Of a DNA stretch of 29,580 bases, positions 6,414 through 27,220 are shown piece by piece. Positions within the stretch are counted from its first letter, which is position 1. Every line of letters begins with the position of its first letter. A model generated the notes under the pieces. The model saw only the letters and a list, made by a program, of their open reading frames with translations. It was not told the DNA's origin and did not search any database. The translations under genes and the position numbers were made by a program. This stretch comes from a virus. The stretch is taken from the IMG/VR virus record IMGVR_UViG_3300021964_000345, positions 1 through 29,580 of that record, one strand, 5' to 3'.

Positions 6414-6732
6414 CGTTTTTACTAACTCAAATTTTGCAGTTTTATCTATTATGGATGTTATAAATTCACATTCAAATGATTATGTTGGTAGTACAGTTTT
6501 TATACAAAGAAAACCAGAAAGTGATTATGGTAATATTACAATTCTTACTTATGAAGAAAACAGTTCCTATAATCTTTCAAGAGAGGATTTTAATGTTCAG
6601 GCACGTTTTGAAGCAAACGCAGTACCTTCTATCGTTTCAAGACTGTCTGCTCCCGCTGACGGTAATGTAGTATTATCAAATTCAAATATCAGTCCTACTA
6701 GTTATCGTGCTAATGGAACACCCATCACTTAA
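6406..6732 (+). CDS. 108-residue protein of unknown function
   Basis: 108 residues starting MSNVFTNSNFAVLSIMDVI. It is rich in Ser and Asn, with predicted beta strands (STVFIQRK, NITILTYE) and a polar C terminus ending GTPIT. No Cys, signal peptide or membrane segment is seen. Composition resembles small phage adhesin or virion accessory proteins, but no family is recognised. The ATG at 6406 overlaps the end of the oxygenase gene and its own end overlaps the next gene by 20 nt, so it belongs to the same operon. Confidence 0.6.
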   Translation: MSNVFTNSNFAVLSIMDVINSHSNDYVGSTVFIQRKPESDYGNITILTYEENSSYNLSREDFNVQARFEANAVPSIVSRLSAPADGNVVLSNSNISPTSYRANGTPIT

Positions 6733-7675
6733 CTACTTTACAAATCAGATATTTCCATGTGAAATGAATTTAATTACACAAAAAGTAGTTAAGTTCATTT
6801 CACAACGTTTTAAAGGTGATTTCTCTATTGTTGATTTTACTTGGTTTAATCAATATGATAACTCAATATATGATATAGAATCAGACTATATTATAGCTGT
6901 GGACGTCGCTGATCCTCCTTATTATTTTTTAAAAGATAAACTATCTTGGATTAAAAAGCTCAATAAGCCTGTTATATTTGTAGGACCTCCTAATAAAGAG
7001 TTTCCTGTTGTTATTCCTTACTTAGCTTGGCTTCGTCATAGACCTCAATCTTATAAAGAAAAAGAGTCTTTAGATAATTTTTTTGTATCCTTCAATAGAA
7101 AACCTCATCCCCATAGAGAGTTATATTTTAACCTTTTAAATTCTTTTGCTATATCTAATCGCGGTCTAGTAAGTTATCATGATATTAATCCATTACATGA
7201 GATACACTCTCTAGTTTTAGATACAGATATTGTTTATATGCAAAATTTAGCTCAACAAATTGATGAAAAACAACTATATTCTTCTTTTGAGATTATCTGT
7301 GAGACCTCTCCCTCAAACAATCATATATTTTTGACTGAGAAGTTTAATAAATGTGTTGCATCTGAAACTCCCTTGTTTTTAGCAGGTAATTATAAGGCTT
7401 TATATACTCTAAAAAAGTATTATGGGTTCACTGATTTTGGACCAGATGATTCTTATGATTTATTACCTACCTATGAACAACGTACGCTCAAGATGCTCTC
7501 TGTAGCAGATTCCTTTTTTGATTACCCCATAAATTCAGTTTTTGACAATGCTAAGAAAAATGCATATCATTTGTTTAACCACTTTGATACTATCCATGAT
7601 AGTATTGTGGATAAATATATTGAAAAGAGCATTAATTATGTTAAAAACAGCAACTCGTATGGCGTTTCTTTCTAA
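6713..7675 (+). CDS. Putative GT-B-like glycosyltransferase, TEK family copy 2
   Basis: 320 residues from ATG 6713; an in-frame GTG sits 6 nt upstream. It has the family signature FVSFNRKPHPHREL near residues 124-137, then FEIICETS and FLTEK (Thr208-Glu209-Lys210), followed by PLFLAGNYKALYTLKKYYGF and DDSYD. This closely parallels the copy at 17772 and, more distantly, those at 3682 and 13297. The ET...TEK...G arrangement resembles GT10/exostosin C-terminal domains. It probably transfers a sugar; the substrate is unknown. Its 3' end contains a likely promoter for the lipase gene, which overlaps it by 38 nt. Confidence 0.6.
   Translation: MEHPSLNYFTNQIFPCEMNLITQKVVKFISQRFKGDFSIVDFTWFNQYDNSIYDIESDYIIAVDVADPPYYFLKDKLSWIKKLNKPVIFVGPPNKEFPVVIPYLAWLRHRPQSYKEKESLDNFFVSFNRKPHPHRELYFNLLNSFAISNRGLVSYHDINPLHEIHSLVLDTDIVYMQNLAQQIDEKQLYSSFEIICETSPSNNHIFLTEKFNKCVASETPLFLAGNYKALYTLKKYYGFTDFGPDDSYDLLPTYEQRTLKMLSVADSFFDYPINSVFDNAKKNAYHLFNHFDTIHDSIVDKYIEKSINYVKNSNSYGVSF
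7542..7570 (+). promoter_or_regulatory. Possible internal promoter for the lipase gene
   Basis: TTGACA at 7542-7547 and TATCAT at 7565-7570 with a 17-nt spacer, inside the 3' end of the upstream coding sequence. A transcript would start near 7577, about 60 nt before the lipase ATG. Eleven of twelve hexamer positions match consensus, but AT-rich coding DNA can give such matches by chance. Confidence 0.45.
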
Positions 7676-8378
7676 ATTAATTTATGAAGATTATGAAACG
7701 ATCAACACTAAACTTTTAGGGATGGGATTTAAAGACTGGTTTTGGTTTGATAAAGACGGTACTCAAGCTTTTATTATAAAAACAGAAAAAGAAGTTGTTA
7801 TCTGTTTTAGAGGTACTGAGCCTGATCAATTAACTGACGTTCTTTCAGATCTTAAAGCATGGCCAAAACGTAGCCGTGAAAAAGGACTGGTTCATTTTGG
7901 ATTTGCACAAGCTCTTGATAGAGTCTATGATAAAATGATGGAGCAGATTCAGCGTTTTGATATGTCAAAAGTTGAAAAAGTAATCTGCACAGGTCACTCA
8001 TTGGGTGGGGCTTTAGCTACTCTTATGGCAAGCCGCATTGATGCTGAAGAAGCATATACCTTTGGGTCTCCCCGTGTAGGTTCTCGTTCTTTTGTTAAGG
8101 AAATGAAAGCTGATAAAATTAAACTTTATCGGTTTGTTAATAATAATGATATTGTAACTAAAGTGCCTTTAGCTCTTATGGGTTATCGTCACTATGGTGA
8201 ACTATGTTATATTAACCACTATGGTAATATACGCAAAATGACTCCTTGGCAACGAATTAAAGATCAATGGCGCGGTCGTTTTAGAGCTTGGCAAAAACGT
8301 GAATGGTTTGACGGAGCTAGAGACCACTCTATGGATTTATACTTTAAGAAAATAAAAAATGTCAGTCTACAGAGCTAG
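7638..8378 (+). CDS. Lipase class 3 family alpha/beta hydrolase
   Basis: 246-residue alpha/beta hydrolase that should cleave acyl esters. The nucleophile elbow GHSLGG places Ser121; Asp171 in NNNDIVTKVP and His230 in ARDHSMDLY complete the triad, as in lipase class 3. CFRGTE (residues 56-61) is the typical oxyanion-side strand, and AYTFGSPRVG is also diagnostic. No signal peptide, so it acts in the cytosol or is released at lysis. The ATG at 7638 starts just before the conserved N-terminal helix; longer in-frame starts would overlap the upstream gene more. The role could be membrane lipid remodelling or lysis. The next gene overlaps by 20 nt. Confidence 0.9.
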   Translation: MLKTATRMAFLSKLIYEDYETINTKLLGMGFKDWFWFDKDGTQAFIIKTEKEVVICFRGTEPDQLTDVLSDLKAWPKRSREKGLVHFGFAQALDRVYDKMMEQIQRFDMSKVEKVICTGHSLGGALATLMASRIDAEEAYTFGSPRVGSRSFVKEMKADKIKLYRFVNNNDIVTKVPLALMGYRHYGELCYINHYGNIRKMTPWQRIKDQWRGRFRAWQKREWFDGARDHSMDLYFKKIKNVSLQS

Positions 8379-8617: not shown

Positions 8618-8881
8618 ATGGGCAAGAAAAAATCAAGAGCACATCAGGTCTCTAAAGGTGAACGCCGTTGTGTTAATAAAAACCTACTTAAATCTATCCG
8701 TTTAGCTTACTTATCTTCTGATGAGAGAATCCGCAATCAGATTGCTGCTTGGCGTGCAGGCAAAAACGTTGTGCTAACAGTTCCTAATCCAGACAAAAAG
8801 AATACTAAAGAACGTATGATTCGTATCCCAGCTGTAGAATACTGGGGTTATCCTCGTCAAATGTCTTTGAAGATGCGATAA
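8618..8881 (+). CDS. 87-residue basic protein of unknown function
   Basis: 87 residues starting MGKKKSRAHQVSKGERRCVNK. The N-terminal half is basic and probably helical (LLKSIRLAYLSSDERIRNQIAAWRAGK). A beta-rich C-terminal half (NVVLTVPNP, RMIRIPAVEYWG) follows. It has an ideal SD, AAAGGAG, 6 nt before the ATG, and its own promoter. The stop TAA overlaps the ATG of the Fpg-type glycosylase gene, so the two are co-expressed and may act in one process. No known family is recognised. Confidence 0.72.
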   Translation: MGKKKSRAHQVSKGERRCVNKNLLKSIRLAYLSSDERIRNQIAAWRAGKNVVLTVPNPDKKNTKERMIRIPAVEYWGYPRQMSLKMR

Positions 8882-9747
8882 TGCCTGAAGGTCCAGAATG
8901 TACACGCACAGCCCGACAAGTTGATCGGGCTGTTCGCGGTAAGTCTTTAGTAAATATAAACTTTATCTCTGGTAGGTACACTAAGAAGTTACCTACTGGT
9001 TTTGCTGATTTTTATATAGCATTAGAAGAAATGCACTTACCTGTTAAGGGTGTATACAATAAAGGTAAATTTATCTGGTGGGAGTTTGGTGACTTACTGC
9101 CTATTTGTTATATGTATACTACTCTTGGTATGTCTGGTAACTTTAAGCTACAACCTTCAAAACATACAAGGATTGCTTTTTATTTTGATGATGACTCTGC
9201 TATCTACTACAACGATATGCGTAATTTTGGTACTGTTAAGTTTGTTTTTGAAGAAAAGGATCATCAAAGAAAGCTTAACTCTATTGGACCTGATATGCTT
9301 AATAATCCTTGTACTCTTAGCGAATTTATTCATATTGCTAGACGTAAGCCTAAATGGACAGTGGTTAAGTGGTTGATGGATCAAGGTCAGATTTCTGGAG
9401 TTGGCAACATCTATAAATCAGAATCCCTCTTCTTAGCAGGGCTAGATCCTCGTAGACTGATGGAGTCTTTTTCAGATGAAGAACTTGAGAAACTTTACTA
9501 TGCTATCTGTAAAATACTAACTGCTTCTTATGAAAGTGGAGGAGCGACTATTCGTAACTATTCAGACCTACATAACAATCACGGCAAATATACTAGGTTT
9601 GCTTCTAGTCCTAAAGAGATGCTTGAGGCTAGACAATCTCGTGTGATGGTTTACAATCAAAAAGAAGATATTTATGGTAATCCTGTTCAACGATTAAAAC
9701 TGAACGATGGACGTACTACATTTTGGTCACCGGAGGTACAACACTAA
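8881..9747 (+). CDS. Fpg/Nei-type DNA glycosylase with zincless finger
   Basis: 288-residue bifunctional glycosylase/AP lyase for oxidised bases. After Met removal, Pro2 and Glu3 of MPEGPE form the catalytic N terminus. TLGMSGNFKL matches the family sheet region, and GQISGVGNIYKSESLFLAGLDP without its first residues is the helix-two-turn-helix. The C-terminal CxxC zinc finger is replaced by a cysteine-free beta-hairpin ending in GRTTFWSPEVQ, i.e. a zincless finger as in NEIL1, plant FPG and mimivirus Nei. It pairs with UvdE as repair capacity. Start and stop both sit in TAATG overlaps; GGAGG for the next gene lies inside its end. Confidence 0.92.
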   Translation: MPEGPECTRTARQVDRAVRGKSLVNINFISGRYTKKLPTGFADFYIALEEMHLPVKGVYNKGKFIWWEFGDLLPICYMYTTLGMSGNFKLQPSKHTRIAFYFDDDSAIYYNDMRNFGTVKFVFEEKDHQRKLNSIGPDMLNNPCTLSEFIHIARRKPKWTVVKWLMDQGQISGVGNIYKSESLFLAGLDPRRLMESFSDEELEKLYYAICKILTASYESGGATIRNYSDLHNNHGKYTRFASSPKEMLEARQSRVMVYNQKEDIYGNPVQRLKLNDGRTTFWSPEVQH

Positions 9748-10697
9748 TGACTTGGTCTAGTTATAATCCAGTAGAAAAAATGCCACATATTTATGGTGAG
9801 CATGTAAAACAAGACGGAGTTCTAATTCCGACTACCGATGAAGTAGCTTGGCAACATTATCGCTGGCATCGATGGGTTTATAACAAGTTTGAAGTAGCAG
9901 AATCACAAGGACTGTCTTGTGGTCTTGTACCTACTGAGCCTACTGAATTTCCTGTGGTAGTTAAACCTGTATTTAACTTAATGGGAGGAAGTATCAATGC
10001 TCGTGTTTGTCATAACATGGATGACTACCGTGCTATAACTGATCCAGGATGTTTTTGGTCTCCTTATCATTTTGGTGAACATCATTCAATAGACCTTATA
10101 CTACTAGACGGTCAAATTATGGAAATGTTTTCGTTTAGAGGTGAGAAGCTACAGTTTGGTGCTTTTGATTTTTGGTCTCTCAATGACGATGAAACTGACG
10201 ATGAGTTATTAGAACTTATAGAACCATGGGTAGAAGAGTATATGGATGGCTATACGGGCTGTCTTAATATTGAAGTTATTGGTGACTATATCATCGAAGC
10301 TCAACTTCGTATGGGTGATATTGATAGGTTAGGAGACTCTGAGTTACTGGAAGCTATTTGGCATCTTTATAACTTTCATGAATGGGTCTACAGTCGCAAT
10401 GATCAAACTCCCACTGAGTTTTATATAGCTGCTCTATTCGCTCAACCTAATAAACAATTTAATATAGATTATAAACTATTTGACTATATTGTTGGTGATG
10501 CGCTAGTTTATTATCAAATTGATGATCCTGATATGTATCATACAAATCCTCCTTCAGGTAATAGAGTTGCAGTATTTTGTGACTACGAACTTGATAATGT
10601 AGTTTGGGCTAGAAATATATGTGCTGCTATGATGAAACCTGATATTGATGGAAAGTATCTTCAACCTCTTGAAGGATACACGGAGTTAACTATATGA
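9747..10697 (+). CDS. ATP-grasp-like protein
   Basis: 316 residues from ATG 9747, which has GGAGG 10 nt upstream (9732-9736) and overlaps the glycosylase stop in TAATG; a longer in-frame start at 9723 is less likely. The central part has ATP-grasp features: FPVVVKPVFNLMGGS (ATP-binding Lys), HHSIDLILLDG, and GYTGCLNIEVIGDYIIEAQLR, with the metal-binding Glu and the final Glu-x-Gln-x-Arg. The family ligates a carboxyl group to an amine or thiol through an acyl phosphate. Its substrate is unknown. It is coupled by ATGA to the dehydrogenase-like gene, suggesting that it modifies an acidic sugar or amino acid. Confidence 0.7.
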   Translation: MTWSSYNPVEKMPHIYGEHVKQDGVLIPTTDEVAWQHYRWHRWVYNKFEVAESQGLSCGLVPTEPTEFPVVVKPVFNLMGGSINARVCHNMDDYRAITDPGCFWSPYHFGEHHSIDLILLDGQIMEMFSFRGEKLQFGAFDFWSLNDDETDDELLELIEPWVEEYMDGYTGCLNIEVIGDYIIEAQLRMGDIDRLGDSELLEAIWHLYNFHEWVYSRNDQTPTEFYIAALFAQPNKQFNIDYKLFDYIVGDALVYYQIDDPDMYHTNPPSGNRVAVFCDYELDNVVWARNICAAMMKPDIDGKYLQPLEGYTELTI

Positions 10698-11821
10698 ATA
10701 TAGGATTTATTGGTTTAGGTAAATTAGGTTTACCAAGTGCTCAGTTATTTGTAGAAATGGGACATAAGTTAGAGGGTTATGATGTTGAAGATAGAGATAA
10801 CTCAGATATTAATATAGTTAGTACAATAGAAGAAGTAGTTTCGCACAAAGATATAGTATTTATTGCTGTACCTACACCACATCAAGAAGGCTATGACGGT
10901 AGTAAACCTACTCACAATCTTGAAGCAAAAGACTTTATGTATGAAACTTTAATAAAAGCTGTTGAACAAGCTGATAGCTTTATGACAGATAAGCAGTTGC
11001 TAGTTATAATTTCAACTGTTTTACCAGGAACAATTCGTCAACACATACATCCAAAAGTTAAAAATGCCAGATTAGTATATAACCCCTACTTAATTGCTAT
11101 GTCAACTGTTAAGCAAGATTTACTAGATCCTGAAATGATTATTGTCGGTACTGTAGACGGTAATAACAAGGGATACGATGATATTGTTAAATTACAAAAG
11201 TTTTACAATTCTATTTGTAACGAGGGCTATAGGTTTGTAACAGGAACTTGGGAAGAGGCAGAATGTATTAAAATCTTCTATAACACATTTTTATCTACAA
11301 AGCTGAGTCTGGTAAATATGATTCAAGATGTTGCTCAAAAAATTAATCATTCAGACACTGATATAATTACTCAAGCTATTGCTAATAGCTCTAAAAGAAT
11401 TACTAGTTCAAAATATATGAAAGCTGGTTTAGGAGATGGAGGTTCTTGTCATCCTCGTGACAATATAGCTTTGAGATATTTAGCACAAAAATTAGATTTA
11501 GGTTATGATTTATTTGATGCAATAAACTTCTCTAGAGATATGCAGGCTAAAAATCTTGCTAAAGCTATTTTAGAACATGGAAGACGTATTCAATTTAGCA
11601 GTGATTATTATAAGCCTAGTACTCAGATTACTGATGGGTCTTATAGCTTGTTAGTACAGTATTATATAAACGCCCTTGGTGGGGTCGTTGTTGATAGTAA
11701 ACCTGAAGTTTTTGTTATCATTCATGAAGGCGACCCTGTACCTGACGACGTAAAAGTATTTGACCCTTGGAGAACTTATAAAGGTAACAATAATTGTGTA
11801 TACTACGGTAAGACTAGATAA
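10694..11821 (+). CDS. UDP-glucose/GDP-mannose 6-dehydrogenase-like protein
   Basis: 375-residue NAD-dependent nucleotide-sugar dehydrogenase. The N-terminal Rossmann motif is GFIGLGKLGLP, with VPTPHQEGYDGSKPT as the UGD signature. Catalytic Cys252 lies in GLGDGGSCHPRD, equivalent to GFGGSCFPKD of the family. The C-terminal NAD/UDP-binding part ends in KVFDPWRTY. All key motifs are present, so it is probably active and makes a uronic acid sugar nucleotide by two-step oxidation. It overlaps the ATP-grasp gene by 4 nt. Length is a little short of the usual 390-450, mainly at the C terminus. Confidence 0.88.
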   Translation: MNIGFIGLGKLGLPSAQLFVEMGHKLEGYDVEDRDNSDINIVSTIEEVVSHKDIVFIAVPTPHQEGYDGSKPTHNLEAKDFMYETLIKAVEQADSFMTDKQLLVIISTVLPGTIRQHIHPKVKNARLVYNPYLIAMSTVKQDLLDPEMIIVGTVDGNNKGYDDIVKLQKFYNSICNEGYRFVTGTWEEAECIKIFYNTFLSTKLSLVNMIQDVAQKINHSDTDIITQAIANSSKRITSSKYMKAGLGDGGSCHPRDNIALRYLAQKLDLGYDLFDAINFSRDMQAKNLAKAILEHGRRIQFSSDYYKPSTQITDGSYSLLVQYYINALGGVVVDSKPEVFVIIHEGDPVPDDVKVFDPWRTYKGNNNCVYYGKTR

Positions 11822-12620: not shown

Positions 12621-12778
12621 AACGTGGTAAAAGCAAAACAATGAGAGAGTATATTGAGATTCGTATTGAGCAACTCTCTGAAGATAGAGAGCTAGCTAGA
12701 GATGATTATGACAAAATGTGGTATTCAAGAGTAATTCAAGAACTAATATGGGTGTTAGAAAATGACAAAACTGATTGA
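12617..12778 (+). CDS. 53-residue charged helical protein
   Basis: 53 residues: MKRGKSKTMREYIEIRIEQL followed by a charged, helix-prone stretch and ending WVLENDKTD. The ATG overlaps the upstream TGA (ATGA), and its end overlaps the SprT-like gene by 17 nt, which supports it as a real coupled gene. No recognised family; probably a small helical hairpin or dimer. Confidence 0.55.
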   Translation: MKRGKSKTMREYIEIRIEQLSEDRELARDDYDKMWYSRVIQELIWVLENDKTD

Positions 12779-13313
12779 TCAAGTAGAAATAAATAAATAT
12801 GCTAATGATTTTATTCGTCGTGTCGAAAAGCAGTGTCAAGAAGAAGTGTACACTGAGTTTAAACTAGCTATGATTAAACTTGATTGGAGTCCGAAACGTA
12901 GATGTTCGCGTGGTGGATTCTACGCTGATGGGCCTGGTATTAATATCGCTATGCACCATCTTGTAAAACCACAAGGAGATATATATTACTCTCAAGAATA
13001 CAAGTCTTTTGATAATGATCCTGAGATTGGGGGCATCTACTCTCGTAACCGCTGGCATAGACTAGAGATGGTAATCCTTCACGAAATCGCTCATGCACTT
13101 CAGTACTATTCTTATAGATTAAACAACTATAGATGTACTCCTCACGGTCCTGCTTTTAAAAACTTTTATCGTAGACTTCGTAATATACACTTAAACCCCT
13201 TCCTTGAGGATCAAAAAGAGTTAGGTGATTATTATAAAGAAGCTAAAAGGCAGATTGAGAAGCTAGATCAATTTGCATGGATGAATAGAGCCGCTAGTGC
13301 TAAAGATTCATAA
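12762..13313 (+). CDS. SprT-like zinc metalloprotease
   Basis: 183-residue protein with the SprT signature: LHEIAHALQ (His107-Glu108-x2-His111) and a third ligand His128 in TPHGPAFKNFYRRL. SprT/SPRTN-type proteases degrade DNA-protein crosslinks or act as zinc-dependent proteases on DNA-bound proteins. No zinc-ribbon C terminus is seen; the tail is Lys-rich and may be disordered. No signal peptide, so it acts in the cytosol. It starts at ATG 12762 inside the previous small gene and is followed by an overlap with the next gene at GTG 13297. Phage copies are common in marine T4-like genomes. Confidence 0.85.
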   Translation: MTKLIDQVEINKYANDFIRRVEKQCQEEVYTEFKLAMIKLDWSPKRRCSRGGFYADGPGINIAMHHLVKPQGDIYYSQEYKSFDNDPEIGGIYSRNRWHRLEMVILHEIAHALQYYSYRLNNYRCTPHGPAFKNFYRRLRNIHLNPFLEDQKELGDYYKEAKRQIEKLDQFAWMNRAASAKDS

Positions 13314-14526
13314 TTTAACCCCTGACTCTTTTCATAAAAAATACCTGGTTACTCAAAAAAAGGCAACGACTCTTTCCGACTATTGCTGGTCTCTTGGGTT
13401 GCCTTTTTCCTTTGACGAAGATTCTTATTTATGTGAAATTGAATTACCAAAAGGTGCAGACATAAAACTAAATCTACAAGAGATAGATTGGAGTTTTTTA
13501 TCTAAAAATAAGTCTAAAAAACTAATTTTAACCCATAGAATAATATATTCTTTATCTGAGTTTAGAGAAGAATTAAATGAAATAATAATTAAAAATGATT
13601 TACATGGAAGAGTATTTTGGCTTTCCATGAATCCTGTAGATTTCAAATTTAAAAAGCATTGTCTTTTTAATCTTCTTTTTTTAGATAGTCTAATTCATGC
13701 TACTCTTGAGTTTAATATTCTTCGTTTATATGAAAAGTTTAAAAAAAATAGTACATTTAATATCTCTAAAGACTATTTTATTAAACACAATGACTCTAGC
13801 ATATATAAGCACAGTTTACTTTACGAGGTTAAAAATCAGCAACGAATAAGTTTTGATGATTGTGATAAGTATTTTTTATCAGCATCTAGAGTTCAAAAAG
13901 CTCATAGACTTATAGCTACTTATTTAATTAAGAATAATACTGCTGTAGACTCTGTAATTACTCAGCATGGATTTAATGATGATTACTTGGATTTAGAAAA
14001 TTATTTAGATGCTCATAGAGATGATCTAGAAAAATTTGGTATTAGTTTATCTGAATTACTTAAATTTAGAACATTTAGGGGGTCCTCTTTTGGATCAGAA
14101 GTCTCAGATAAATTTATAGGCACAATATCTGATCACCAACAAGTAATTAGTGAGTGTCTTGTTAACTATGTTAATGAAACTACTTCTAATGATGTAGAGA
14201 TATTTTTAACAGAAAAAACTTGGGGTAATTATTTATATGGGAGGCCTTTTATCTTAAATGGTAATAAAGGCTCTATTGCTTATCTAAATAAGTATTATGG
14301 TTTTAAATCTTTTGAAGGTCTTTTTGATGAAAAATATGATCTGATGGATAGTTACGTAGACAGAGTTTATTACGGGGTTGAAGAACTCGTAAAGTTTTGC
14401 TGTTTAGATTTTAAACAAGCAAAAGAGAAGGTAGAATCACTTGAGGCAGTTTATACTCATAATTACAAAGTTTTTAACTCTATTGACTTTAAAAAAATGT
14501 TTTTAAAGGTTTTTGATGGCATCTAA
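13297..14526 (+). CDS. Putative GT-B-like glycosyltransferase, TEK family copy 3
   Basis: 409 residues, starting at GTG 13297 within the SprT-like gene; no ATG occurs for the next 300 nt in this frame. It carries YFLSASRVQKAHRLI near residues 190-205, then VNETTSND and IFLTEK (Thr305-Glu306-Lys307), followed by PFILNGNKGSIAYLNKYYGF, and FDEKYD. This is the same layout as the copies at 3682, 6713 and 17772. A GT10/exostosin-like donor-site motif is inferred. The N-terminal half is unlike the other copies, so acceptor specificity probably differs. It overlaps the radical SAM gene by 11 nt. Confidence 0.58.
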   Translation: MLKIHNLTPDSFHKKYLVTQKKATTLSDYCWSLGLPFSFDEDSYLCEIELPKGADIKLNLQEIDWSFLSKNKSKKLILTHRIIYSLSEFREELNEIIIKNDLHGRVFWLSMNPVDFKFKKHCLFNLLFLDSLIHATLEFNILRLYEKFKKNSTFNISKDYFIKHNDSSIYKHSLLYEVKNQQRISFDDCDKYFLSASRVQKAHRLIATYLIKNNTAVDSVITQHGFNDDYLDLENYLDAHRDDLEKFGISLSELLKFRTFRGSSFGSEVSDKFIGTISDHQQVISECLVNYVNETTSNDVEIFLTEKTWGNYLYGRPFILNGNKGSIAYLNKYYGFKSFEGLFDEKYDLMDSYVDRVYYGVEELVKFCCLDFKQAKEKVESLEAVYTHNYKVFNSIDFKKMFLKVFDGI

Positions 14527-15595
14527 TTACTGTTCTAGACCTTTCAATGAGATGCATATAGAAGAGAACGGTAACGTTACTCCTTGTTGTGTTATGCCTT
14601 CAAATAGATTTTTTATGGGTAATGGTATAAAAGATTATTTTTATGGTGATAGTTTAAGAATATTAAAAGAACAGTTTTTAAACAATCAAAAACCTGATAG
14701 TTGTGAATACTGCTGGGATGCAGAGAAAGTAAATCTTAAAACACATAGAATAGATAATAAAACTGACGGCATACATCAGATGCATATCAGGCTGAACAAT
14801 GTCTGTAACTTTAAATGTAGAATGTGTAATCCTAAATTCTCGTCTGCTTGGGAAATTGAAAATAGAAAACATAATTACTTTATACATGATTATTCTACTC
14901 AGAAAGACGTTTTTGACTATGATCCTAATCTTTTACCTTTTATAGTAAAACTTGCAAAAGCAAATCAACTTAAATTTTTAAATATTTCAGGCGGAGAGCC
15001 ATTAATAACTGACGCTCATTATAAACTTTTAACCTATTTGTTAGAAAACGGTGCAAATAATTTGATTCTAGGGTATTCAACTAATCTTTCAAATTTAACT
15101 TATAAAAACATTGATCTCATGTCTCTTTGGTCAAAGTTTTATCAAGTATTAATTGAGGCTAGTTGTGATGGCTGGGGTGACGCAGTTGAGTACTCTAGGA
15201 CTGGTTTTAAACGTGATATATTTATGAAAAATTTTATAAAAGCACACAGCTATATTAATAGGATTAACTGTGTCGTTAATATTTATAGCGTATGGACTTT
15301 ACCCTATATTGAAAAAATATGTGATAAGTTTGGTGTTAAGCCTATATACTCCCCTTGCTTTTTACCAGATTTTCTAAACCCCCAACACTTATATAGAGAA
15401 GACAAAGATGAATTAAAAAAGCTTTATGAGCCGTATCCTAGACTACGCCAAGTTTTTAATGATTATATAGATAGAGATAAAGTAACTTTAGGTAAAGATA
15501 TGTGTGAATATAATCTCTTGCTAGATTCATATCGTGGAACTGATTTCTTTGAAACTTTTCCTCAGTATAGGAAATACTATGATTCTGGTAGCTAA
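14516..15595 (+). CDS. Radical SAM protein with N-terminal SPASM/twitch-like cluster
   Basis: 359 residues from ATG 14516 (an in-frame TTG sits just upstream). The radical SAM cluster motif CNFKCRMC places Cys97, Cys101 and Cys104, and LNISGGEPLI is the SAM-binding GGE motif. Before the core lie Cys6, Cys24-Cys25, and Cys63-x2-Cys66, which look like an auxiliary Fe-S cluster placed N-terminally instead of the usual C-terminal SPASM. These proteins modify peptides, sugars or cofactors by radical chemistry. Neighbouring sugar genes and SGNH hydrolase suggest a carbohydrate or glycan-linked substrate. An overlap with the next gene supports one operon. Confidence 0.9.
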   Translation: MASNYCSRPFNEMHIEENGNVTPCCVMPSNRFFMGNGIKDYFYGDSLRILKEQFLNNQKPDSCEYCWDAEKVNLKTHRIDNKTDGIHQMHIRLNNVCNFKCRMCNPKFSSAWEIENRKHNYFIHDYSTQKDVFDYDPNLLPFIVKLAKANQLKFLNISGGEPLITDAHYKLLTYLLENGANNLILGYSTNLSNLTYKNIDLMSLWSKFYQVLIEASCDGWGDAVEYSRTGFKRDIFMKNFIKAHSYINRINCVVNIYSVWTLPYIEKICDKFGVKPIYSPCFLPDFLNPQHLYREDKDELKKLYEPYPRLRQVFNDYIDRDKVTLGKDMCEYNLLLDSYRGTDFFETFPQYRKYYDSGS

Positions 15596-16347: not shown

Positions 16348-16575
16348 ATGGCAGAATATCTAGTAAGGAGAGCAAAGTATGGATTCGAAGTGGCAAAGTT
16401 TGAAGAATCGAGTTATCCCATTGATGTTTACAGTATCACTGGTAGCAGATGTTTTTGTCCTGCTAGGACTCGTTCTTGTAAGCACATGAAGATATTTAAA
16501 GCATGGGAACGTAACGGTTCCCAACCAGGTGAGGTGTACGATGACACCGCAAAAATTATTAATAGGTTGGTATAA
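16348..16575 (+). CDS. SWIM-type zinc-finger protein
   Basis: 75 residues from ATG 16348, selected because GGAG (16338-16341) lies 6 nt upstream; an in-frame ATG at 16321 is possible but has no SD. The core is RCFCPARTRSCKHMKIF, which fits the SWIM finger pattern CxCx(n)CxH. SWIM domains bind DNA or proteins. It may be a small regulator; nothing else is recognised. Its stop overlaps the start of the following nucleotidyltransferase gene (TAATGG). Confidence 0.7.
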   Translation: MAEYLVRRAKYGFEVAKFEESSYPIDVYSITGSRCFCPARTRSCKHMKIFKAWERNGSQPGEVYDDTAKIINRLV

Positions 16576-17366
16576 TGGAAGTAATTGTATTATCAGGTGG
16601 GTTTGATCCTGTACATGATGGACATATTAGTATGTTTCGTGAAGCAGCTGAGAAATATGACCATGTGATTGTAGGACTTAATTCTGATGATTGGTTGACT
16701 CGTAAGAAGGGTCGTGCCTTTATGTCATACGATGTTCGTAAATCAGTTCTTCAATCAATTAAATGGGTTGATGAGGTTGTAGGATTTAATGATGATGACA
16801 ATACTTGCTGCGATGTGTTAGAATATGCTATTTCAACCCATACAAATGTATCTTTTGGTAATGGTGGTGACCGAGCAGGAGGCAACTTTCCTGAATTAGA
16901 ATATTGTAAGCAGAATGATATTCAAATAGACGACACACTAGGCGGTGATACCAAAATTAACTCGTCTTCAGATATACTTGCACAATGGACTTGGCAATTA
17001 ACAAAACGTGATTGGGGTTTATGGAAAGTTCTTGCTGACTACCAAACTGTAAAAGTTAAGGAGTTAGTCGTAAATCCGAAGAGTGAATTGTCTTGGCAAT
17101 CACACGAAAAGAGAAATGAAATCTGGTTTATTAGGCAAGGAACTGCTACAATTTACTATTCGTCTGATGATGACGGAGAAGAGGTATTTAAAACTACTAA
17201 GAGGGAAAACCAAACTTTTGATATACCAGTAAAGAAATGGCATCAGCTTGTTAATGAAACTGAAGAACTACTTTCTATTATTGAAATTCAGTATGGTTCT
17301 GACTGTGTTGAGTCAGACATCCTTCGCGGCAGTCGTCCCTCAGGAGATTACTTGCCTAGCTACTAA
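16575..17366 (+). CDS. Cytidylyltransferase fused to a mannose-6-phosphate isomerase-type cupin
   Basis: 263 residues. The N-terminal domain, residues 1-130, is a HIGH-type nucleotidyltransferase: SGGFDPVHDGH with His14-x-Gly16-His17, VGLNSDDWL and FGNGGDR, as in RfaE/TagD enzymes that make CDP- or ADP-linked sugars. Residues 135-255 are a type II PMI/GMP-type cupin: DWGLWKVL, SWQSHEKRNEIWFI (His177) and IIEIQYGSDCVESDILR. The family normally isomerises mannose-6-phosphate or serves as the guanylyltransferase partner. A two-domain fusion in this order is unusual to me. It probably makes an activated sugar for the block. The 3' 113 nt also encode the start of the SleB gene in another frame. 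Confidence 0.85.
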   Translation: MEVIVLSGGFDPVHDGHISMFREAAEKYDHVIVGLNSDDWLTRKKGRAFMSYDVRKSVLQSIKWVDEVVGFNDDDNTCCDVLEYAISTHTNVSFGNGGDRAGGNFPELEYCKQNDIQIDDTLGGDTKINSSSDILAQWTWQLTKRDWGLWKVLADYQTVKVKELVVNPKSELSWQSHEKRNEIWFIRQGTATIYYSSDDDGEEVFKTTKRENQTFDIPVKKWHQLVNETEELLSIIEIQYGSDCVESDILRGSRPSGDYLPSY

Positions 17367-17772
17367 TATCTATTGGGAGGCTAGAAATCAATCTAAGGAA
17401 GGTATGATAGCTGTAGGCTCTGTTACTAGAAATAGAGTACATGATAAGCATTTTCCTAATAATTACTGTGATGTAGTATATCAGGCAAAACTATCAAAAT
17501 GGTGGTTTGAGCATCATCAACGTGAAGTACCTCTTAGAAATAAGTGTCAGTTCTCTTGGTATTGCGACGGTAAACCAGATGATATTCCTTTTCAAGACAA
17601 AGAGCTATACGAGCGCATAAAGCGTTTAGCTGTTCGTATCTATTTCGGTTATACCCCTGATAACACCTTTGGGTCAAACTTCTACCATGCTGATTATGTT
17701 TATCCACTTTGGGCTGATACCATGACACATACAGTTACTATTGATAATCATATTTTCTATAGATCAGAGTAA
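17254..17772 (+). CDS. SleB-type cell wall hydrolase with Sec signal peptide
   Basis: 172 residues from ATG 17254. The first 25 residues form a textbook signal peptide, MKLKNYFLLL followed by a hydrophobic core and TSFA, with likely cleavage before AVVPQ. The rest is the Hydrolase_2 (SleB) domain: LATNIYWEARNQS with probable catalytic Glu42, NRVHDKHFPNNYC, CQFSWYCDGK, and SNFYHADYVYPLW. It should cleave peptidoglycan glycan strands, acting in the periplasm as the phage endolysin or a release factor. The signal peptide region lies wholly in the coding sequence of the upstream fusion gene, in a different frame (113-nt overlap). The next gene follows in a TAATG overlap. Confidence 0.9.
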   Translation: MKLKNYFLLLKFSMVLTVLSQTSFAAVVPQEITCLATNIYWEARNQSKEGMIAVGSVTRNRVHDKHFPNNYCDVVYQAKLSKWWFEHHQREVPLRNKCQFSWYCDGKPDDIPFQDKELYERIKRLAVRIYFGYTPDNTFGSNFYHADYVYPLWADTMTHTVTIDNHIFYRSE

Positions 17773-18785
17773 TGAATATTTATCCTAAAGAACTAAGAGG
17801 TTTTCGTGGTGAGTATGTTAATAGTTACTTGTGCGAGACAGAAACAATATTTTTTAACTATTTAAACAAGTACGTTGACAATAGTTTTATATTCTCACTT
17901 ACTTTTTGGTATACCGAATCTAATCAAGTTCTTTATGATACTGATTTCTCATCTTATGATTATATTTTTATGTTGGATTTTTTAGATCCTCCTGATTATC
18001 TTAATAAATGGGATGAAGTATATAGTATTTTTAAAGGTCATTTAGATAAGTGTTATGTTGTTTCATGCCCTTATAAAAACCCTTATTTTAAAACTTTACC
18101 TTTTGATCACTTTTTTCATTTTTATTCAGACTTCAGTACTAATCGTGTTTATCCTAGAAAGCATAAAAAGAAATTTTTATCGTATAATGGTAGACCTCAC
18201 ACTCACAGAATTGAGTTACTAAAATATTTATATAAAAAAGATTTATATAAAGATGGGTACGTTTCAGGTAGGCTAGATAAAAATAAATCTTATTCTAATG
18301 ATTTTAAGTCTTTATTCCCGATGATTTTGAAAAATGATGTATCTATAAAGATGCAAAATCAGCTAAATAATCAATTAAAGACAACTCCGTACAACTATTA
18401 TGCCCCAGTTAATATAGTAACTGAAACTTCTATTAATGCAGACCACGTTTTTTGTACTGAAAAGCTATGCAAATCTATAGTTAGCAAGCAAATTACTATG
18501 TTAATAGGCAGTCCTTTAACTTATAAATATTTAACTAATGTTTATGGATTAAAGAATTATGGATTTGATTTTGAACCTAGAATAGCTGATTATTCTTTTG
18601 ATTATAAAATTAAATACTATTGCAGTTTTCTTAAAGAAACAACTTTAGACGATTTAATAGCTATTTATAAGGAAAAAGAGGATATACTTGAGTACAATAA
18701 GAATAAAGTTTTAAAGGAGTTCAAGCAGATCTCTTACAATTTATTCTTGACTTCTCTTAAAAAACATCATATAATTCACTCATAG
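17772..18785 (+). CDS. Putative GT-B-like glycosyltransferase, TEK family copy 4
   Basis: 337 residues starting at ATG 17772. KFLSYNGRPHTHRIELLKYLY near residues 138-158 closely parallels the copy at 6713, followed by VNIVTETSIN and FCTEK (Thr229-Glu230-Lys231), then a Gly-containing loop and YGLKNYGFDF. PFLL of the other copies is changed to ITMLIGS. The donor-site resemblance to GT10/exostosin enzymes is inferred. The start is in a TAATG overlap with the SleB stop. A strong promoter for hsp20 lies inside the last 40 nt of this gene. Confidence 0.58.
   Translation: MNIYPKELRGFRGEYVNSYLCETETIFFNYLNKYVDNSFIFSLTFWYTESNQVLYDTDFSSYDYIFMLDFLDPPDYLNKWDEVYSIFKGHLDKCYVVSCPYKNPYFKTLPFDHFFHFYSDFSTNRVYPRKHKKKFLSYNGRPHTHRIELLKYLYKKDLYKDGYVSGRLDKNKSYSNDFKSLFPMILKNDVSIKMQNQLNNQLKTTPYNYYAPVNIVTETSINADHVFCTEKLCKSIVSKQITMLIGSPLTYKYLTNVYGLKNYGFDFEPRIADYSFDYKIKYYCSFLKETTLDDLIAIYKEKEDILEYNKNKVLKEFKQISYNLFLTSLKKHHIIHS
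18747..18775 (+). promoter_or_regulatory. Consensus promoter for hsp20 inside the upstream gene
   Basis: TTGACT at 18747-18752 and TATAAT at 18770-18775 with a 17-nt spacer, located within the 3' end of the preceding coding sequence. The start would be near 18782, which gives a leader of about 52 nt with AAGGAG before the Hsp20 ATG. Confidence 0.72.
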
Positions 18786-18833: not shown

Positions 18834-19247
18834 ATGATGACTGGATCATTCGCTTATCCAAGAAGCGCATTTTTGGGCTTCGACCATATTTTTGATGAAC
18901 TACAAAAAATCCGTGCTCATGCAAACGACGGATACCCTCCTCACAATGTGATTAAAACAGGTGAAAAAACCTATACGGTTGAACTAGCAGTTGCTGGTTT
19001 CAAGAGAGATGATTTATCTATTGAAATCAAAGATCATGTGCTCACTGTCAAAGGTGAACGAGGTCAACGCAGACCAGAGGAGCAATACATCCATCGTGGA
19101 CTAAGCACTCGAAAGTTCTCAAAATCATACAGACTCAGCGAGTATACAGAAGTCGTTGGAGCTGATCTTGTTGATGGTATTTTGTCTGTTGACTTAGAGG
19201 TAATTGTGCCTGAAGCCAACAAACCGAAAATGATTACTATTAAATAA
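18834..19247 (+). CDS. hsp20: Small heat shock protein, Hsp20/IbpA type
   Basis: 137-residue alpha-crystallin-domain chaperone that holds unfolding proteins. GFDHIFDEL at residues 15-23 is IbpA-like, LTVKGER at about 70-76 and YIHRGLSTRKFSKSYRLSE are core motifs, and GILSVDLEV ends the domain. The C terminus has a short KPKMITIK tail without the classic I-x-I. ATGATG gives two possible starts (18834, 18837) behind AAGGAG. It has its own strong promoter and is followed by an SD-masking hairpin. Hsp20 is a common auxiliary gene in marine T4-like phages, probably aiding capsid or host protein folding. Confidence 0.93.
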   Translation: MMTGSFAYPRSAFLGFDHIFDELQKIRAHANDGYPPHNVIKTGEKTYTVELAVAGFKRDDLSIEIKDHVLTVKGERGQRRPEEQYIHRGLSTRKFSKSYRLSEYTEVVGADLVDGILSVDLEVIVPEANKPKMITIK

Positions 19248-20203: not shown

Positions 20204-20410
20204 ATGTCACTCAAAGGAACTATTACTTTTAATATTCGTCCAGACTACGATCAGGATGTTACTACTTCAACTCATGTTGTGCCTAGCTCAGAATACTCTT
20301 TTGAGTTTGACCATACAGAAGGTTTAACACTTTCTACTGTAGATATTCAGTATCACTTCAATGCATGGCTACGCTCAATCGGTTATGTAATTGACCACGA
20401 AGACCAATAG
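20204..20410 (+). CDS. 68-residue protein of unknown function
   Basis: 68 residues, acidic: MSLKGTITFNIRPDYDQDV with a beta-strand start, a central SSEYSFEFDHTEG segment, then DIQYHFNAWLRSIGYVIDH. It looks like a small alpha/beta fold. The preceding GGAG supports the ATG. Its TAG stop (20408-20410) contains the first two bases of the tRNA-Trp gene. No family recognised. Confidence 0.65.
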   Translation: MSLKGTITFNIRPDYDQDVTTSTHVVPSSEYSFEFDHTEGLTLSTVDIQYHFNAWLRSIGYVIDHEDQ

Positions 20411-20482
20411 GGGCTAAGTGTTACGGCAGCACAGCTGATTCCACCTCAGCGGGATAGGGTTCAATTCCTTACGCCCCTGCCA
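20409..20482 (+). tRNA. tRNA-Trp (anticodon CCA)
   Basis: 74 nt including encoded CCA. Acceptor stem AGGGGCT/CGCCCCT (T7-C66 mismatch), D stem GTG/CAC, anticodon stem GCTGA/TCAGC with loop TTCCACC, T stem TAGGG/CCTTA (one G-U) with loop TTCAATT. The A1-U72 pair, G73 and CCA anticodon are the bacterial tRNA-Trp identity elements, and the acceptor end matches E. coli tRNA-Trp closely. Position 37 is C instead of a purine, which is unusual. Its first two bases overlap the upstream stop codon. Confidence 0.85.
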
Positions 20483-20483
20483 A

Positions 20484-20558
20484 GCGGGTATAGTATAACG
20501 GCTATTATTACAGCCTTCCAAGCTGAGGATCGGGGTTCGAGTCCCCGTACCCGCTCCA
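20484..20558 (+). tRNA. tRNA-Gly (anticodon TCC)
   Basis: 75 nt with encoded CCA. Acceptor GCGGGTA/TACCCGC, discriminator T, anticodon loop CTTCCAA with TCC at the anticodon position, T stem CGGGG/CCCCG with loop TTCGAGT. It resembles E. coli tRNA-Gly(TCC) closely. A27-A43 is a mismatch in the anticodon stem. It is separated by 1 nt from each neighbouring tRNA. Confidence 0.93.
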
Positions 20559-20559
20559 T

Positions 20560-20635
20560 GTCCCGTTCGTCTAGTGGTTTAGGACACCGCCCTTTCACGG
20601 CGGCAACACGGGTTCGAATCCCGTACGGGATGCCA
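20560..20635 (+). tRNA. tRNA-Glu (anticodon TTC)
   Basis: 76 nt with encoded CCA. Acceptor GTCCCGT/ACGGGAT, discriminator G, anticodon stem CCGCC/GGCGG with loop CTTTCAC, and T stem ACGGG/CCCGT with loop TTCGAAT. Standard tRNA-Glu structure. Only 1 nt separates it from tRNA-Gly; five T follow before the next SD. Confidence 0.93.
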
Positions 20636-24120: not shown

Positions 24121-24149
24121 TTGCTTAATGCTTTAATTTATGAGATAAT
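24121..24149 (+). promoter_or_regulatory. Extended -10 promoter for the nuclease-methyltransferase-helicase operon
   Basis: TTGCTT at 24121-24126 and GATAAT at 24144-24149 with a 17-nt spacer and a TGA extended -10 element (24141-24143). The start would be near 24156. It serves the MutH-like gene at 24181; AGAGGCG is the likely SD. Confidence 0.62.
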
Positions 24150-24180
24150 TACTGATAATCGAAATTTATCAGAGGCGAAT

Positions 24181-24777
24181 ATGCAACTTCAACAAGCATT
24201 TGAAATTCTCACCCCAATGGTTGGTCAGACCATTGAAATAAATGAAAATGTAGCAAACAAAGGTAAGTTCGGTCACGCACTTGAAAAGTTTCTTGAACTT
24301 AATCTTGGTTCACATCATCTTGACTTTGAAGATGGTGAACTAAAAACTTGTGCTGTTCGTAACGGTAATATGAAAGAAGATTTTAAGATTTGCAAAGTGT
24401 GGGATAAAGACTATATTGAGTCTAAACTTGCTAATATGCTACTAGTGTTGTATGATTATGATACTGGCGAAATTCAATCTGTCCAACAAATGTCAATCTT
24501 AGGTCATCCTGTTATTCGTTCACAGTTCGATAAAGAGGTTGATTGGTTGCTTGAACAACCTAATATAAATCTCATATCACAACGAGATACAGAAGTTTTT
24601 TTAGCAAAGACAAATGACACAGGCAACAAAGCAATCAACGACCGAGCACTTTATATTGCTAGAGCACCTTGGGGGTACATTACTGGTTGTGGTTATTCAA
24701 ATCGTGCCAGAAAAGGCAAACAATTTGTAAAAGAAATGGAAACTTATGAGCAGACAAAAACAGGGTGTGCGGCTTAA
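24181..24777 (+). CDS. MutH/Sau3AI-like restriction or mismatch endonuclease
   Basis: 198 residues. NKGKFGHALEKFLEL gives Glu35, and LDFEDGELKTC gives Asp48, Glu53 and Lys55: the E...D...ExK active site of the MutH/Sau3AI group of PD-(D/E)xK nucleases. The KG-x-G-x-LE and D-x-E-x-K layout matches MutH (Glu56, Asp70, Glu77, Lys79), with a two-residue shorter Asp-Glu gap. Such enzymes nick or cut at GATC-like sites depending on adenine methylation. The C-terminal half matches no domain I know but has YITGCGYSNRARKGKQF. It is first in an operon with an adenine methyltransferase and a DExH helicase; it overlaps the next gene by 32 nt. Confidence 0.8.
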   Translation: MQLQQAFEILTPMVGQTIEINENVANKGKFGHALEKFLELNLGSHHLDFEDGELKTCAVRNGNMKEDFKICKVWDKDYIESKLANMLLVLYDYDTGEIQSVQQMSILGHPVIRSQFDKEVDWLLEQPNINLISQRDTEVFLAKTNDTGNKAINDRALYIARAPWGYITGCGYSNRARKGKQFVKEMETYEQTKTGCAA

Positions 24778-25312
24778 CGCTACCGACTTCTACCCAACAC
24801 CGTCCTGGTGTTACAAAAATCTTGATATTGATTGGACACAATTCACTTCTGCACTAGAACCGTGTAGAGGTGATGGTCGTATTTATGAATGGTTAAAGAC
24901 TCACATCGAAGATGTAGACTACTGTGAAATCAGAGAAGATCGTGACTTTTTAGAGTATACAACCGAACGAGACTTAGTATTTACTAATCCTCCCTTTTCA
25001 CTTGCACAAGAGTTTATAGACCGTTCAGTGTCAATCGCTAACACAACTTTTATGTTGTTGCGTATTAATTATTTAGGTTCTATCTCTCGTCACGACTGGT
25101 GGAAGTCTCAACCTCCTACAGCTCTTTATGTGATGTCAAAACGTCCATCATTTACAGGTAAAGGCACTGACGCTACAGACTATGCGTGGTTTGTATGGGA
25201 TAAAACTGATAGAGTGCAGAGAGGAATACATTTTGTATCTCCTCCTACAAAAGAACAAGCAGCAGAAGATAATAAACTATGTGCAGAAGCACTGGCAACT
25301 CAGGAGACTTAA
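24746..25312 (+). CDS. DNA N6-adenine methyltransferase-like protein
   Basis: 188 residues, starting at ATG 24746 inside the nuclease gene. DFYPTPSW near residues 14-21, EPCRGDGRI (38-46, motif I for SAM binding) and DLVFTNPPFS with Asn81-Pro-Pro-Phe84 (motif IV, N6-adenine) identify the family. It is short but has both core motifs; no separate target-recognition domain is evident. In this operon it probably methylates the sites recognised by the MutH-like nuclease and so protects phage DNA. AGGAG near its 3' end is the SD of the next gene, which starts immediately after its stop. Confidence 0.87.
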   Translation: MSRQKQGVRLNATDFYPTPSWCYKNLDIDWTQFTSALEPCRGDGRIYEWLKTHIEDVDYCEIREDRDFLEYTTERDLVFTNPPFSLAQEFIDRSVSIANTTFMLLRINYLGSISRHDWWKSQPPTALYVMSKRPSFTGKGTDATDYAWFVWDKTDRVQRGIHFVSPPTKEQAAEDNKLCAEALATQET

Positions 25313-27013
25313 ATGATCGATGATCAAAGACCGATTAAGATTTTTACTGATGAACGTACCTATATCTTTCCAAAAGGACGTAACCTACTAGTCTCTCCTG
25401 TTCGTTGGGGTAAAACCACTCTTTTAGCAAAGGCAGCTCGTCAACTAACTGCAACTGATAATGCAATCTGTCTATTTATTTCTCCAAATCTTAACAATCT
25501 ACAAGAAGACTGGGTAGACAAACACTCTGCTCTCAACTTAATTGATAAGCTTGATCTTGAATGTTGTTTTCTTAAACGGTCATACCACACTTGGACTCCA
25601 GATTTACTCTCAGATACACCGCTAAAACGCATCTATTCTACTAATAAGCATATTAAGTGGTTAGATGAGTTAAAGGAGCATCTTGAGGCTGTAATTGAGA
25701 TTCGTCATAAAATTACTAAACATCTTGTGTTTTTAGTGGATGAGGTACATGGAATTGCCAGCGATGCGGAAGCTAACCGTAAACTTCGTGAATGTATTGA
25801 TTTGATGAGTGAACTAGGAACTGTGATCGCATCAACTGCTACTCCTCACCGAGTTATTGGTCGTGAAGAGTGGACAAAACATATCAACATTGAGTATCCT
25901 GAAGGCGTGCTTAAACCTCATGAAACTCCACTGGCTGAGCTATCTCATGAATCAATTCAACAGTTACGAGATCAAGAAAAGATACCACAAGAGTTAATTG
26001 ACCTAATTGATAAACACCGTCAACCAGGATGGAATATTTGTCCTGTAGTAGGTCAACGATTTATCAACTGGCATATGTGGTTTGTGAGAGAGATGAAATC
26101 AATCTATCCTCAGGCTGAGTTTCTTCGCATCTCAAATGGAGAATATTCACTCTGGCAAGATGGAGTTGAAGTCTCACTAAAGCGAATGTTCAATCGTCCT
26201 ATCACTTCTGTACAACAGGCTGTTGATGCTATCACTGACCATCTCTTCTCAGACCGTGATGACCTACAGCTTTTTGTTGTAGGACACGCACAGATTGAAG
26301 AAGGACAGACTCACGGTAACTTCTCAGGCACTCGATTTCCAACTCTTCAAATCATCATTCCGCCTCAACACCCGTGGGATGATAAGTTTGCGCAGTGGGT
26401 TCGTATTGAGCATCGTAAAGCCTCTGCCTACAATATCATTCCGACTATGATTACAGGTGTAGACTGGTGGACAGACTATGTAACATCTACTAACTACATG
26501 GCTGAGTATTCTAAGGCGTTAAATGATCAAACTCCTTTCAACAATCCGCTTCCTAAGTTAGATAGATTAAAGCAGTCAGCTGTTGCACACGGTACTTTTA
26601 AGCCAAGAACTCCAACAGATATTTCAAAGTTTAAACTCTGTCACGATACGCTAGAGCTATCCTTTGAAGGTGCACAAACTTTGATTGATGCTCAAAGAAA
26701 AAAGAGAGGTGGTCATCGTTTTGCACAACTTCGTAATGCAGCCAAACAACTTGCAGCTGAAAACGGTGCACCATTTGATGATAATTGTCGCATACTCTAT
26801 AGTTCAGATGATCTTGAGTCTAAGTTTTTCTTTACAGCTGAAAAGCCAAGAGAAGCTATTCACATTCTACGACACAATCATCCAGACCGTGCCTGGGTTG
26901 TTATATATCATGAACCTTTTGATCCTGAAAAGCATCGAAAGATTCATCCTAGAACTAAAGAACCGTGGGTAGCTGACCAGATGCTCCCTCCACCTACACA
27001 ATCTGTCTCTTAA
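25313..27013 (+). CDS. SF2 DExH helicase/ATPase (type III restriction-like)
   Basis: 566 residues. Walker A SPVRWGKTT (Lys34), with Ser in place of the first Gly; Walker B FLVDEVHG with Asp143-Glu144-Val-His146; motif III ASTATP (173-178). QIEEGQTHG and WVRIEHRKAS in the C-terminal half resemble motifs V and VI. This is a superfamily 2 translocase like those of type I/III restriction, Hel308 or T4 UvsW. The C-terminal about 150 residues match no nuclease motif I know. It is third in the operon and has the same expression as the nuclease and methyltransferase, suggesting a single multi-subunit complex. Confidence 0.86.
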   Translation: MIDDQRPIKIFTDERTYIFPKGRNLLVSPVRWGKTTLLAKAARQLTATDNAICLFISPNLNNLQEDWVDKHSALNLIDKLDLECCFLKRSYHTWTPDLLSDTPLKRIYSTNKHIKWLDELKEHLEAVIEIRHKITKHLVFLVDEVHGIASDAEANRKLRECIDLMSELGTVIASTATPHRVIGREEWTKHINIEYPEGVLKPHETPLAELSHESIQQLRDQEKIPQELIDLIDKHRQPGWNICPVVGQRFINWHMWFVREMKSIYPQAEFLRISNGEYSLWQDGVEVSLKRMFNRPITSVQQAVDAITDHLFSDRDDLQLFVVGHAQIEEGQTHGNFSGTRFPTLQIIIPPQHPWDDKFAQWVRIEHRKASAYNIIPTMITGVDWWTDYVTSTNYMAEYSKALNDQTPFNNPLPKLDRLKQSAVAHGTFKPRTPTDISKFKLCHDTLELSFEGAQTLIDAQRKKRGGHRFAQLRNAAKQLAAENGAPFDDNCRILYSSDDLESKFFFTAEKPREAIHILRHNHPDRAWVVIYHEPFDPEKHRKIHPRTKEPWVADQMLPPPTQSVS

Positions 27014-27023
27014 ATTTTTACTA

Positions 27024-27052
27024 TTGCAGATGCTCTAAGATTGTGCTACTAT
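27024..27052 (+). promoter_or_regulatory. Extended -10 promoter with TTGCAG -35
   Basis: TTGCAG at 27024-27029 and TACTAT at 27047-27052 with a 17-nt spacer, plus TGC directly before the -10 (extended -10). The start would be near 27059, at the beginning of the non-coding stretch. Confidence 0.6.
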
Positions 27053-27057
27053 ATGTT

Positions 27058-27180
27058 CATTAGCTAGTTTGAATTGATAACGCTGGCGAACAGCGGTGTC
27101 CCAGATTGTTCAACACTGTGCGACCGTAGGGAGCTAGTGTGAGAAACGGAGTTTCTTAGAGTTATACGCCACACTTGCGT
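27058..27180 (+). ncRNA. Candidate structured small RNA
   Basis: Gene-free DNA directly behind a promoter, with higher GC than its surroundings. Four helices are visible: CATTAGCT (27058-27065) with AGCTAGTG (27132-27139); CGCTG/CAGCG (27081-27095) around GCGAA; TGAGAAAC/GTTTCTTA (27140-27158) around GGA; and ACGC/GCGT (27166-27180) around a 7-nt loop. A second pairing, AGTGTG with CACACT, competes. A T6 run at 27207-27212 may end it. No known RNA family is recognised and no ORF fits. Confidence 0.5.
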
Positions 27181-27191
27181 CTACATTCCTA

Positions 27192-27220
27192 TTGCTAAAT
27201 CCCCTATTTTTTGCTATATT
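27192..27220 (+). promoter_or_regulatory. Extended -10 promoter with TTGCTA -35
   Basis: TTGCTA at 27192-27197 and TATATT at 27215-27220 with a 17-nt spacer and TGC before the -10. The start would be near 27227, about 32 nt before the ATG at 27259, with AGGAG in the leader. Confidence 0.62.

Follow-up and report, generated by a model that had tools for sequence, protein, structure and literature searches.

A phage locus with a predicted MutH/Sau3AI-fold endonuclease, an adenine methyltransferase and an SF2-like ATPase as a probable restriction-modification-like cassette

Three consecutive genes on the plus strand (positions 24121-27013) of a viral DNA record of 29,580 bases, referred to as the window, probably constitute a phage-borne restriction-modification-like cassette, in which a nuclease would cut unmarked DNA with optional ATP-driven help. 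The phage is represented by environmental DNA as its sole source. The genes encode a nuclease with a predicted MutH/Sau3AI fold and conserved catalytic residues, a DNA methyltransferase (MTase) of the phrog_799 family and a P-loop ATPase, and they are laid out as an operon. In related phage contigs the MTase is paired repeatedly with two unrelated nuclease families, and the pattern of exchange identifies the MTase as the core around which the partners change.

The nuclease gene (24181..24777, plus strand) encodes 198 residues and begins at ATG 24181, preceded by the ribosome-binding site GAGG at 24172..24175. A start at TTG 24121 is ruled out by this site and by the homologues, which begin at the position of ATG 24181. 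The end of the gene overlaps by 32 nt (24746..24777) with the start of the MTase gene (24746..25312, plus strand, 188 residues), and the ATG of the ATPase gene (25313..27013, plus strand, 566 residues) follows the MTase stop codon with no gap. The first-pass annotation had described the three genes as overlapping or abutting, which is correct, and had placed an extended -10 promoter in front of them, which is not upheld. The element TGAGATAAT is visible by eye at 24141-24149; it is not among the promoters listed by a consensus scan, and the candidate was rejected since promoter-like sites in the region are no commoner than chance (13 against 11.1 expected). Downstream of the genes, no structured RNA was detected in 27014-27210 (z = 0.37). 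Rfam gave tRNA matches only.

Single-sequence profile searches with the nuclease gave nothing useful, as did single-sequence PDB searches with all three proteins. Homologues of the nuclease were found through the neighbouring MTase in five phage contigs (L041, L050, L053, L055 and L056) and are 39-43% identical to the window protein. In their alignment, numbered from ATG 24181, N26-K27-G28, E35, D48, E53 and K55 are kept in all five homologues, and the predicted catalytic residues E35, D48, E53 and K55, invariant in the six sequences, are aligned with E. coli MutH. An AF2 model of the window nuclease based on the homologue alignment has a pLDDT of 84 and a pTM of 0.82, and the best 11 Foldseek matches of this model in the PDB are all MutH or Sau3AI, the first being MutH 2aor (TM 0.69, E 9.5e-8). 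A PDB-sequence profile search aligned the same catalytic motif with MutH, although weakly (E 0.28), and the nuclease of L050 matches the NCBI MutH models at 2e-6. With the Foldseek matches, the conserved residues and the profile matches in agreement, the protein is assigned, as a predicted fold with good confidence, to the MutH/Sau3AI variant of PD-(D/E)XK nucleases. The same four residues had led the first-pass annotation to liken the protein to MutH and Sau3AI and to name its fold in advance as the point to be checked; the model places it in that fold. For the predicted fold and for the catalytic site the assignment holds, but judged by its scores the protein is not a MutH equivalog, because these fall far under the cut-off of the NCBI model: L050 reaches 27 bits against a cut-off of 243 and the window protein gives no match.

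The part of MutH that reads GATC is the C-terminal one. The C-terminal part of the phage nucleases gives no clear alignment with MutH, and therefore GATC specificity is not claimed for them. GATC avoidance in the phage DNA was considered as a sign of such specificity and rejected. GATC is indeed rare in L053 (0 versus 15.8 expected) and L056 (2 versus 23.4), but contigs with no MutH-type partner in view are equally depleted, with none in L062 and L074 and 5 versus 51.9 expected in L073; the window itself has 81 versus 112 expected. The counts are thus uninformative on the target, because depletion is common whatever the partner. Strong depletion, to 0-20% of expectation and independent of the nuclease type, is seen in L053, L056, L059, L062-L067, L073, L074, L084 and others, and points to GATC restriction in the hosts of these phages.

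The nuclease profile identified 53 bacterial relatives in GTDB genomes, chiefly from Clostridia and Saccharibacteria. A Dam-type MTase is found nearby in 42 of the 53 loci and an N6_N4 MTase in 28. Three of the four bacterial relatives run against Pfam MutH score above the cut-off and the fourth just below it, the three run against NCBIfam match both the MutH and the Sau3AI models below cut-off, and a profile-profile comparison relates the phage set to the bacterial set at 99% probability. The neighbourhood of these bacterial kin is that of restriction-modification (RM) loci and not of mismatch repair. The Sau3AI/MutH-type enzymes of bacterial Dam-type (D12) RM loci resemble the phage nuclease in predicted fold, catalytic residues and the presence of a neighbouring adenine MTase. 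They differ in that the phage MTase belongs to phrog_799 and not to D12, that the phage enzyme is shorter and diverges in its C-terminal part, and that an ATPase gene follows in the phage cassette.

Among the roles suggested for the trio by the first-pass annotation, the restriction-like one is favoured by the bacterial kin, which lie mostly near Dam-type MTases, with the role of the cassette as such being a prediction. Another, the processing of mismatches, obtained no specific support. It would make the three genes a reduced set for methyl-directed mismatch repair or strand discrimination, comprising a Dam-like MTase, a nickase resembling MutH and a helicase as a substitute for UvrD. The closest fold is indeed that of MutH, an enzyme whose partners are the Dam mark and a helicase. 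However, neither MutS nor MutL is present among the annotated genes of the window, a possibly incomplete contig, the unrelated PDDEXK_11 nuclease takes the place of the MutH-like one in close relatives, the bacterial kin reside in RM-like loci and not in the setting of E. coli mutH, and the scores lie far under the MutH equivalog cut-off. Mismatch repair was consequently ranked low and is highly improbable.

In one of the bacterial loci, L131 (5660-6558), and in similar loci of Lachnospiraceae, a 219-aa MutH-like nuclease is encoded behind an 80-aa HTH protein that may be a controller (C) protein, and Dam-type and N6_N4 MTases are located nearby.

The MTase matches phrog_799 with E 3e-54. Its motifs DFYPTP, EPCRGDG and NPPF are conserved across the family alignment and stand in the order that is typical of N6-adenine enzymes; motifs I and IV, EPCRGDG and NPPF, are both present. 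On these sequence grounds it is an N6-adenine-type enzyme of the phrog_799 family, in agreement with the earlier proposal made from DFYPTP and NPPF. Relatives occur in 545 phage records. The protein is 90% identical in the IMG/VR contigs L006-L010 and 54-69% identical in dozens of other IMG/VR contigs.

The pairing of this MTase with a nuclease recurs in 30 contigs. A small PDDEXK_11 nuclease (assigned from five representatives with Pfam E values of 3e-10 to 1e-14), unrelated in sequence to the MutH-like nuclease, precedes the MTase in 25 of them, directly in 23 and with an ATPase gene in between in L012 and L017. The MutH-type nuclease accompanies the MTase at six loci counting the window; in the window, L050, L053, L055 and L056 no gene separates the two, the nuclease coming first, and in L041 the order is nuclease-ATPase-MTase. 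Many relatives have a nuclease and the MTase with no ATPase in view, and many others have the MTase alone; in some the ATPase may lie out of view, because many contigs are short. When viral sequences were scanned with the nuclease and ATPase profiles, no loci came up beyond those already known, and the evidence for linkage is therefore the neighbour pattern itself. Conservation of the trio in relatives, another point raised by the first-pass annotation, is thus found in part: the exact trio does not recur and the helicase of the window has no detectable relative, whereas the MTase and a nuclease do, joined by an SF2-like ATPase in L041, L012 and L017.

The exchange of partners is visible at the DNA level. 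In the cassette region, similarity between L006 and the window is confined to 24747-25312, the full length of the MTase ORF, with 84.6% identity, and the genes on either side of the MTase differ between the two. A 91-aa gene and an Fpg-like glycosylase gene flank the PDDEXK_11-MTase pair in L006-L010. The window counterparts of these two, an 87-aa gene and the glycosylase gene (8618..9747, plus strand), abut at 8881 with the MTase 16 kb away, and this stretch is therefore a site without the cassette. Three unrelated upstream proteins, in the window, L006 and L012, are encoded with the same 32-nt overlap at the MTase start and for this reason have a common C-terminal tail (EQTKTGCAA, EQTKTRCAA and VQTESRTAA, respectively); the overlap is absent in L050, L053, L055 and L056. 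At least four changes of the MutH label are required by the MTase tree, all forced by well-supported branches, in a count that does not distinguish gain from loss. L041, with a MutH-type nuclease and an ATPase, and L017, with PDDEXK_11 and an ATPase of the same family, are sisters on this tree at 98/84. Two tandem phrog_799-type MTases are found in L011 (8484-10558), one located behind an HNH nuclease and the other behind PDDEXK_11.

A separate observation concerns L037, where the gene before the MTase (3911-4627) shows an HNH-like Cys/His motif by eye and has no Pfam match; it may represent a third type of nuclease at this position.

The exchange of partners and sites could also be that of a homing-like or self-spreading cassette, whose nuclease would cut cassette-free genomes and thereby spread the MTase gene and its partner among phages. 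The cassette does occupy different sites in related phages, with the window lacking it at the L006 site, L011 carries HNH-MTase and PDDEXK_11-MTase pairs in tandem, and the PDDEXK_11 proteins also match, weakly, PHROGs named HNH or homing endonuclease. Nevertheless, homing enzymes are not known to need an MTase, and the known enzymes that have the MutH/Sau3AI fold recognise short target sites, so that homing is considered improbable.

A different possibility is that the MTase is an orphan anti-restriction shield, and that the genes of the nuclease and the helicase serve DNA metabolism independently of it, being its neighbours by chance in a variable region. Orphan phrog_799 MTases of Vequintavirinae and other phages belong to the same family as the window enzyme, with about 40-45% identity; in the three Vequintavirinae inspected the gene directly upstream is clpP, for a ClpP-type protease, and there is no nuclease partner, whereas the window MTase has a nuclease beside it. 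Inspection of four annotated phages showed no annotated nuclease of the kinds described here beside the MTase, and many IMG/VR contigs also have the MTase without one. Moreover, a conserved link between the window ATPase and the MTase cannot be demonstrated because this ATPase has no relatives. Chance, however, explains neither the occurrence of two unrelated nuclease families in the same place in these 30 contigs nor the recurrent 32-nt overlap at the MTase start, and the bacterial kin of the nuclease are MTase-linked. The orphan explanation, while it deserves some weight, is therefore unlikely.

The third protein contains Walker A (GKTT), DEVH and the motif III sequence STATP, in that order. 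The first-pass annotation had taken it for an SF2 helicase from Walker A and DEVH; the motifs are there, but the assignment as a helicase is weak, with Pfam ResIII, the best Pfam match, at E 4.5e-4 just below the curated cut-off and an AF2 model on a 7-row alignment reaching a pLDDT of 40. PADLOC PbeA matches at 2.3e-4 over the ATPase motifs only, the second RecA-like domain (motifs V and VI) is covered by no profile, and Z1 is absent from the Pfam results even at E 10. No homologues were found in phages, IMG/VR or GTDB genomes. Judged from its motifs, the protein is an SF2-like P-loop ATPase and a probable DNA motor.

In relatives, a P-loop protein of 513-537 residues (about 520) adjoins the MTase. 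The ATPases of L012, L014 (where it is cut), L017 and L041 form one family and precede the MTase, as do those of L057 and L058; that of L049 follows the MTase, as in the window. Within a seven-sequence set, the ATPases of L012, L041, L049, L057 and L058 are related to each other with pairwise BLASTP values of 5e-5 to 4e-8, and that of L049 contains a Z1 domain at 2.1e-9, above cut-off. The window ATPase has no detectable or statistical relation to these MTase-linked proteins, and the motif layout alone agrees. For this reason we infer its membership in the module from its position and by analogy with L041 and L049.

The nearest characterised systems to the window module are CglI and NgoAVII, in which the MTase M, the nuclease R and the SF2-Z1 ATPase N are three genes of one RM system and DNA is cleaved only if N hydrolyses ATP (PMC4267653). 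The likeness lies in an MTase, a separate nuclease and a separate SF2-type ATPase encoded as three genes and extends, in the related locus L049, to a real Z1 domain in the MTase-linked ATPase. The R proteins of these bacterial systems contain a PLD nuclease and a B3 DNA-binding domain (PMC4267653), while the window nuclease has the predicted MutH fold and its carrier is a phage; N has a Z1 domain, which is not detected in the window ATPase. Because of the PLD/B3 R protein, the window cassette is not a member of this group. RM enzymes of chloroviruses, such as CviJI, have been proposed to act against host DNA (PMC7019647) and provide another case of a virus with an MTase and a restriction nuclease side by side. 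Those are eukaryotic algal viruses, however, with other enzyme families and no ATPase gene in the described pair (PMC7019647). Type III RM (Mod and Res) likewise combines an adenine MTase, an SF2 motor and a PD-(D/E)XK nuclease, and ResIII is the best, below cut-off, Pfam match of the window ATPase. In Type III enzymes, however, Res unites the SF2 motor and the nuclease in one protein, as opposed to the separate ORFs of the window, and Mod is far larger than the 188-aa MTase.

For the preferred restriction-modification-like reading, we infer methylation, cleavage, a target common to both enzymes, a coupled ATPase and the victim DNA as follows. The MTase would place an N6-methyl-adenine mark on the phage DNA, and the MutH-fold endonuclease would cut or nick DNA devoid of this mark, either the chromosome of the host or the DNA of a co-infecting phage. 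The SF2-like ATPase, optional in relatives, may move on DNA at the expense of ATP and activate or position the nuclease, like the N protein of CglI/NgoAVII. The partners of the conserved MTase would be exchanged by recombination at the MTase ends, so that one and the same MTase occurs with different nucleases or ATPases in related phages. A difficulty for this reading is that two unrelated nucleases working with one MTase would need either the same target or an indirect reading of the mark.

A more elaborate and tentative proposal, which is conceivable but carries less conviction, is that of a modular ATP-assisted RM weapon. It would combine the mark of a constant small MTase with interchangeable nucleases attached at the MTase start codon (MutH-fold, PDDEXK_11 and perhaps HNH) and with fast-evolving Z1/SF2-like motors, as a viral counterpart of CglI-type RM directed against host DNA or rival phages. 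If this is true, a phage could change the cutter and keep the mark. Phage MTases are mostly regarded as protection from host restriction; with a cutter in addition, and sometimes a motor, a phage would use restriction-modification as a weapon of attack or exclusion. The repeated replacement of the nuclease beside a nearly unchanged MTase amounts to a natural experiment, in which two unrelated nucleases should respect one mark, and three short genes therefore allow a direct test of the purpose of phage-encoded RM. The open-access literature yielded no paper on phage MutH-like nucleases that are paired with MTases.

Several other genes of the window are of interest. Four mutually related proteins of 322-409 residues (BLASTP E down to 2e-15), encoded at 3682-4860, 6707-7675, 13297-14526 and 17772-18785, form a paralogous family and have no significant match to Pfam or PHROG families. 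Genes related to repair and stress encode a UvdE-like UV endonuclease (2-967), the Fpg-like DNA glycosylase (8881-9747), a SprT-like protein (12762-13313) and Hsp20 (18834-19247), an unusual set for one phage. Sugar modification is represented by a nucleotide-sugar epimerase (2786-3694), a UDP-glucose dehydrogenase-like protein (10694-11821), a radical SAM/SPASM protein (14513-15595) and a cytidylyltransferase fused to a mannose-isomerase cupin (16575-17366). A Class 3 lipase domain (Pfam 4e-27) encoded at 7542-8378 is odd for a phage contig, and three tandem tRNA genes, for Trp, Gly and Glu, are located at 20409-20635.
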